A DNA stretch of 64,000 nt from Rhodospirillales bacterium BBD 1991-14 (GTDB taxonomy: Bacteria > Pseudomonadota > Alphaproteobacteria > Kiloniellales > Kiloniellaceae), in assembly GCA_001657395.1 (NCBI GenBank), contig LYSY01000001.1, positions 558,001 to 622,000 of the forward strand. Reading direction: 5' to 3'. The notes below the pieces were generated by a model. It worked only from the letters and a program-made list of their open reading frames with translations, ran no database searches and had not been told where the DNA came from. Both the position numbers and the translations under genes were made by a program. Below, piece after piece: positions 46,557-46,705 of the stretch (positions within the stretch are counted from its first letter, which is position 1; each line of letters begins with the position of its first letter).

Positions 46557-46572
46557 CTGTCCGTTTGGTCAA
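46557..46572. promoter_or_regulatory. Degenerate RutR-like box upstream of hydA
   Basis: CTGTCCGTTTGGTCAA, imperfect match to TTGACCnnnnGGTCAA. Confidence 0.6.
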
Positions 46573-46689
46573 TTTTGCATCATGTCGCAGCCCGATGCGA
46601 GTCCGCTTTTCGTGCTTTCGCCCGGTTTTCGGCGAAGGCACGGACGGCGGGGACCCTGCCGCCGGGCGAATAGGGCCTTGCATCGGTTC

Positions 46690-46705
46690 CTGACCAAATG
46701 GTCAA
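46690..46705. promoter_or_regulatory. RutR-like operator upstream of the nitrilase gene
   Basis: CTGACCAAATGGTCAA, inner TGACCA-N2-TGGTCA dyad as in box 1. Confidence 0.85.

Follow-up and report, generated by a model that had tools for sequence, protein, structure and literature searches.

The gap between the divergent hydA and nitrilase genes of Rhodospirillales bacterium BBD 1991-14 carries 16-base dyads that recur about 18 kb away, between rutR and preT. This raises the question of which protein reads these marks and whether the genes they bracket form one regulon. We examined this in a stretch of 64,000 nucleotides, hereafter the window, and in related genomes. A uracil-sensing repressor of the RutR/PydR type, predicted to control an island of pyrimidine-degradation genes, very probably binds at this mark.

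Predicted Operator Boxes and Their Rarity

The predicted operators are as follows:

28913–28928, plus strand: predicted operator CTGACCAACTGGTCAA, rutR/preT region; half-sites invariant in Pelagibius
28935–28950, plus strand: predicted operator TTGACCGCTTGGTCAA, rutR/preT region, 22 bp from the 28913 box
46557–46572, minus strand: predicted weaker operator CTGTCCGTTTGGTCAA (TTGACCAAACGGACAG when read along hydA), 42 bp upstream of the ATG of this gene
46690–46705, plus strand: predicted operator of RutR type, CTGACCAAATGGTCAA, in the hydA/nitrilase gap towards nitrilase

Both boxes of the hydA/nitrilase gap were found where the original prediction had placed them, between the two divergent genes. 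Its by-eye statement that the window holds no comparable dyad elsewhere was borne out by a scan allowing up to three mismatches, which returned four places only (28913, 28935, 46557, and 46690) against 0.09 matches expected by chance from shuffled sequence.

The pattern TTGACCANNTGGTCAA, which we take to be, letter by letter, the E. coli RutR box consensus, occurs with at most one mismatch at three sites only in the whole 5.5-Mb genome, 28913, 28935, and 46690, all of them within the island; a scatter of comparably good matches at random sites, which would have spoken against a regulon, did not appear. This genome scan consisted of pattern searches with reversed-pattern controls, in place of a true weight-matrix scan. 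At exactly two mismatches, 26 sites were counted genome-wide versus 32 for the reversed pattern, that is, at control level; the ones inspected fall mostly within coding-like frames, and we judged these sites to be chance matches rather than operators. The 46557 box has three mismatches to the pattern and would lack significance on its own.

As expected of a RutR box, a palindrome of about 16 bp lies between rutR and the divergent pyrimidine-catabolic operon, and the rutR/preT boxes are also present in relatives. Outside the window, at G000:C1:646189–646220, two adjacent 16-bp palindromes, TTGAGCAATTGTTCAA and TTGAGCATATGTTCAA, form a different tandem operator-like pair.

Genes of the Island

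The genes of the island and their assignments are the following:

26907–27836, minus strand: 2-hydroxyacid dehydrogenase-like gene, downstream of rutR and kept beside it in Pelagibius relatives
27841–28164, minus strand: EthD-domain protein (domain match), overlapping the rutR stop codon
28161–28844, minus strand: rutR, RutR/PydR-like TetR repressor, 227 aa (TIGR03613, 196 bits, E 6e-58; E. coli RutR structures, E ~1e-45; PF08362)
29011–30378, plus strand: preT, NAD(P)-binding subunit of dihydropyrimidine dehydrogenase (29029 may be a better start)
30422–31699, plus strand: preA, NAD-dependent dihydropyrimidine dehydrogenase subunit (NF006183, 722 bits, above cut-off)
31794–33032, plus strand: M20 hydantoinase/carbamoylase-family amidase (TIGR01879, above cut-off)
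33106–37126, plus strand: ABC transporter with ATPase, two permeases, and NMT1-type binding protein
37746–38978, minus strand: class V PLP-dependent enzyme, last in the hydA operon
38999–40270, minus strand: cytosine deaminase-like amidohydrolase (NF005748, above cut-off)
40289–44991, minus strand: BMP/PnrA-type ABC transporter, nucleoside-type, with two permeases, ATPase, and binding protein
45073–46515, minus strand: hydA, dihydropyrimidinase (TIGR02033, 595 bits, above cut-off)
46769–47632, plus strand: nitrilase-superfamily enzyme, beta-ureidopropionase-like (PF00795)

The two converging operons that had been proposed, from preT to the NMT1-type binding protein on the plus strand and from hydA to the class V PLP gene on the minus strand, are present and meet at ~37.1–37.7 kb. 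Read from the genes alone, the reductive Pyd set (dihydropyrimidine dehydrogenase, dihydropyrimidinase, and ureidopropionase) is found together, and the island genes are predicted to provide for uptake and for each of the three steps by which uracil is degraded reductively. The closest solved structures to HydA are those of D-hydantoinase/dihydropyrimidinase (5e5c and 5ykd), and the best PDB matches of the nitrilase are a fly protein (2vhh) and the beta-ureidopropionases 8pt4 and 6ftq. RutA of the alternative Rut pathway had no match in the genome, which leaves the reductive route as the pathway.

Beta-ureidopropionase has two candidates in the island, the M20 amidase and the nitrilase, which are non-homologous and share the predicted regulator. 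The class V PLP enzyme is not an obvious beta-alanine aminotransferase. The EthD gene was also detected beside rutR in two Pelagibius relatives.

The Predicted Regulator

The 28161–28844 product is the only RutR-like protein encoded in the genome, scoring 196 bits with the RutR model versus 47 bits for the next TetR protein; its ungapped alignment with E. coli RutR, 189 residues long, shows 44% identity. In E. coli RutR, residues W77, Y97, W167, Q171, and Q179 are described as contacting uracil, and K52 and K62 as lysines of the DNA-binding domain (PMC10891134). All five uracil-contact residues are identical in the 28161–28844 protein, and both lysines are conserved.

The TetR helix-turn-helix (PF00440) and the YcdC-like C-terminal domain (PF08362) were both detected above cut-off. 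The strict RutR equivalog model TIGR03613 has a cut-off of 368 bits, which this protein does not reach and which none of the 50 relatives searched passes either; for this reason we use the name RutR/PydR-type for the regulator instead of calling it a strict RutR equivalog. The conserved pocket and the precedent of E. coli RutR lead us to infer that uracil would be the inducer.

Conservation of the Boxes in Relatives

The genome groups with Pelagibius. Besides Pelagibius and Sneathiella, other alphaproteobacteria and two MAGs labelled SAR324 or Deltaproteobacteria have a box ~50–100 bp upstream of the nitrilase gene; in two further Kiloniellaceae-type genomes it lies 176–181 bp upstream. In these related loci, 1.25 Mb in all, we counted 25 occurrences of the motif, mostly upstream of nitrilase, whereas 40 permuted palindromes gave 0.1 on average.

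When the rutR/preT gap was aligned in six genomes, both boxes stood out as invariant blocks, and their spacing of 22 bp, two helical turns, was kept in 6/6. P. litoralis has the full layout too, two boxes 22 bp apart and a distant third, as do two further genomes of Pelagibius type. When the hydA/nitrilase gap was aligned in nine genomes, its invariant blocks were likewise both boxes, the weak one included; the 46557 box is kept in eight relatives, distant ones among them. Weak by consensus, this hydA-side box is a candidate operator on the strength of its conservation.

Co-Occurrence of Box and Regulator

We compared 50 genomes with the nitrilase gene. A box within 600 bp upstream of it was found in 20/29 genomes with a RutR-like protein versus 3/21 without one (Fisher p = 1.6e-4, an optimistic value, the genomes being related). 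On the tree of the genomes the RutR and box labels change several times; in SAR324, RutR and the box are both present in one genome and both missing from its two nearest relatives.

The association has exceptions. In three genomes the box is present and RutR was not detected: L030 and L094, with an unmistakable box, and L058, with a 12/14 match; the missing RutR in L030 and L094 is possibly due to MAG incompleteness. Several genomes with RutR have no box at the nitrilase gene. No TTGACCANNTGGTCAA site with at most one mismatch was found in L105, L134 (Woeseiaceae), and L122 (Reyranella), which encode a RutR-like protein; the Reyranella genome has a two-mismatch version of the box between rutR and preT, which suggests drift of the motif. 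Where rutR adjoins preT, the motif lies beside rutR at every such locus inspected, with one partial-match exception (L133).

The box is also kept where the loci are far apart. Three genomes have 66–73 kb between the rutR/preT locus and the nitrilase locus on one contig, with a box at each. In two genomes, L145 and L138, the BMP transporter lies apart from hydA and has a box to itself, which independently supports its membership in the regulon.

Conservation across relatives, retention of the box at distant loci, and co-occurrence with RutR thus support that part of the original prediction which saw a candidate regulon island here. Its extent, put at ~19 kb, proved larger: the island spans ~26.9–47.6 kb once the outward genes, rutR (minus strand) and nitrilase (plus strand), are included.

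Promoters

A candidate preT promoter, conserved in all six aligned genomes, is the following:

28935–28964, plus strand: candidate preT promoter TTGACC-18-TACAGT

The first half of the 28935 box coincides with its −35-like hexamer, and because of this overlap repression by promoter occlusion fits preT; autoregulation fits as well, since the divergent rutR adjoins the same two boxes. A simple scan of the hydA/nitrilase region returned no good sigma-70 promoter, and the promoters picked there by eye for hydA and nitrilase are unsupported by it.

Alternative Readings

Another TetR-family protein, or RutR together with a second regulator, might read the boxes instead of the neighbouring RutR-like protein. 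Other TetR proteins are indeed encoded in the genome, and the three genomes with a box and undetected RutR point the same way; set against this, the remaining TetR proteins score at most 47 bits with the RutR model versus 196, and the motif is of the RutR box class, is found together with RutR, and, apart from L133, lies beside rutR wherever the latter adjoins preT in the loci inspected. We regard this reading as very unlikely. Smaller still, to the point of being negligible, is the chance that the similarity is accidental or that the boxes are −35 hexamers conserved for other reasons. The half-site TTGACC does resemble a −35 element and is part of the candidate preT promoter, but the complete dyad has few matches in the genome, does not occur in the permuted controls, and is conserved as a palindrome; genome rarity, permuted controls, and the nine-genome alignment refute this explanation at the sequence level.

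The 46557 box could be a decayed relic, with the strong 46690 box alone functional and serving both hydA and nitrilase. Its three mismatches to the consensus would agree with this, as would the single strong box in Sneathiella and in other short hydA/nitrilase gaps. A relic would be expected to decay, yet nine genomes keep the core TGTCC..T.GGTCAA almost unchanged, with one T replaced by C in two distant ones, while the distance to the strong box varies from ~97 to 133 bp (~97, 101, 115, and 129–133); we therefore consider a relic improbable. With the spacing varying without a fixed helical phase, we did not invoke DNA looping between the two boxes. If the imperfect site on the hydA side, TTGACCAANNGGACAG, is an operator, it may be a tuned weak one, so that hydA and the nucleoside-type transporter on one side and nitrilase on the other would be induced at different uracil levels, a suggestion we put forward only tentatively and consider rather doubtful.

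Proposed Model

Overall, it is highly probable that the four boxes are operators of the 28161–28844 RutR/PydR-type repressor and that pyrimidine catabolism in the island is under control relieved by uracil. In the absence of uracil, the repressor dimer would occupy the four boxes and block transcription of rutR itself (autoregulation), of preT-preA-amidase-ABC(NMT1), of hydA with the BMP transporter, cytosine deaminase, and PLP genes, and of nitrilase. Uracil binding would release the repressor from the boxes, and two divergent promoter regions would in this way control reductive pyrimidine catabolism and two transporters. The transporters may import pyrimidines or nucleosides, and cytosine would be deaminated; uracil would then be converted by PreTA, HydA, and a beta-ureidopropionase, either the nitrilase or the M20 amidase or both, yielding beta-alanine, ammonia, and CO2. 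For the island we infer binding, repression, transcription of the operons, and substrates.

E. coli RutR is known to be released by uracil from a 16-bp palindromic box, with sites at rutR/rutAG and carAB (PMC10891134). The island resembles this system in its TetR repressor, in the palindrome of ~16 bp between rutR and a divergent catabolic operon, and in the uracil-contact and lysine residues; in contrast to rutA-G in E. coli, its predicted targets are the reductive preTA/hydA/ureidopropionase pathway and transporters. Pseudomonas putida is reported to have a RutR-like repressor of the reductive pathway, PydR (Hidese et al. 2012, doi 10.1093/jb/mvs079; cited in PMC7332683), to which the predicted regulator of the island corresponds in type and in pathway.

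RutR regulons for pyrimidine catabolism have been predicted in 68 genomes of 13 proteobacterial groups, with ~11 genes per genome and taxon-specific motif changes (RegPrecise; Leyn et al. 2016, PMC5343134). The literature searched, which covered RegPrecise at the level of these overall figures, yielded nothing direct on a RutR/hydA regulon in alphaproteobacteria and no further relevant PydR papers.

This type of control is already known from RutR and PydR, and the island is a well-supported new example rather than a new kind of system; what it adds is a second operator region, a weak conserved site on the hydA side, and two transporters. Taken together, these predictions from sequence give one island of a poorly studied marine lineage a regulator, a ligand, and a set of targets, among them two transporters and a pair of non-homologous ureidopropionase candidates; in this island a RutR-type repressor would serve the reductive pathway where RutA was not found.
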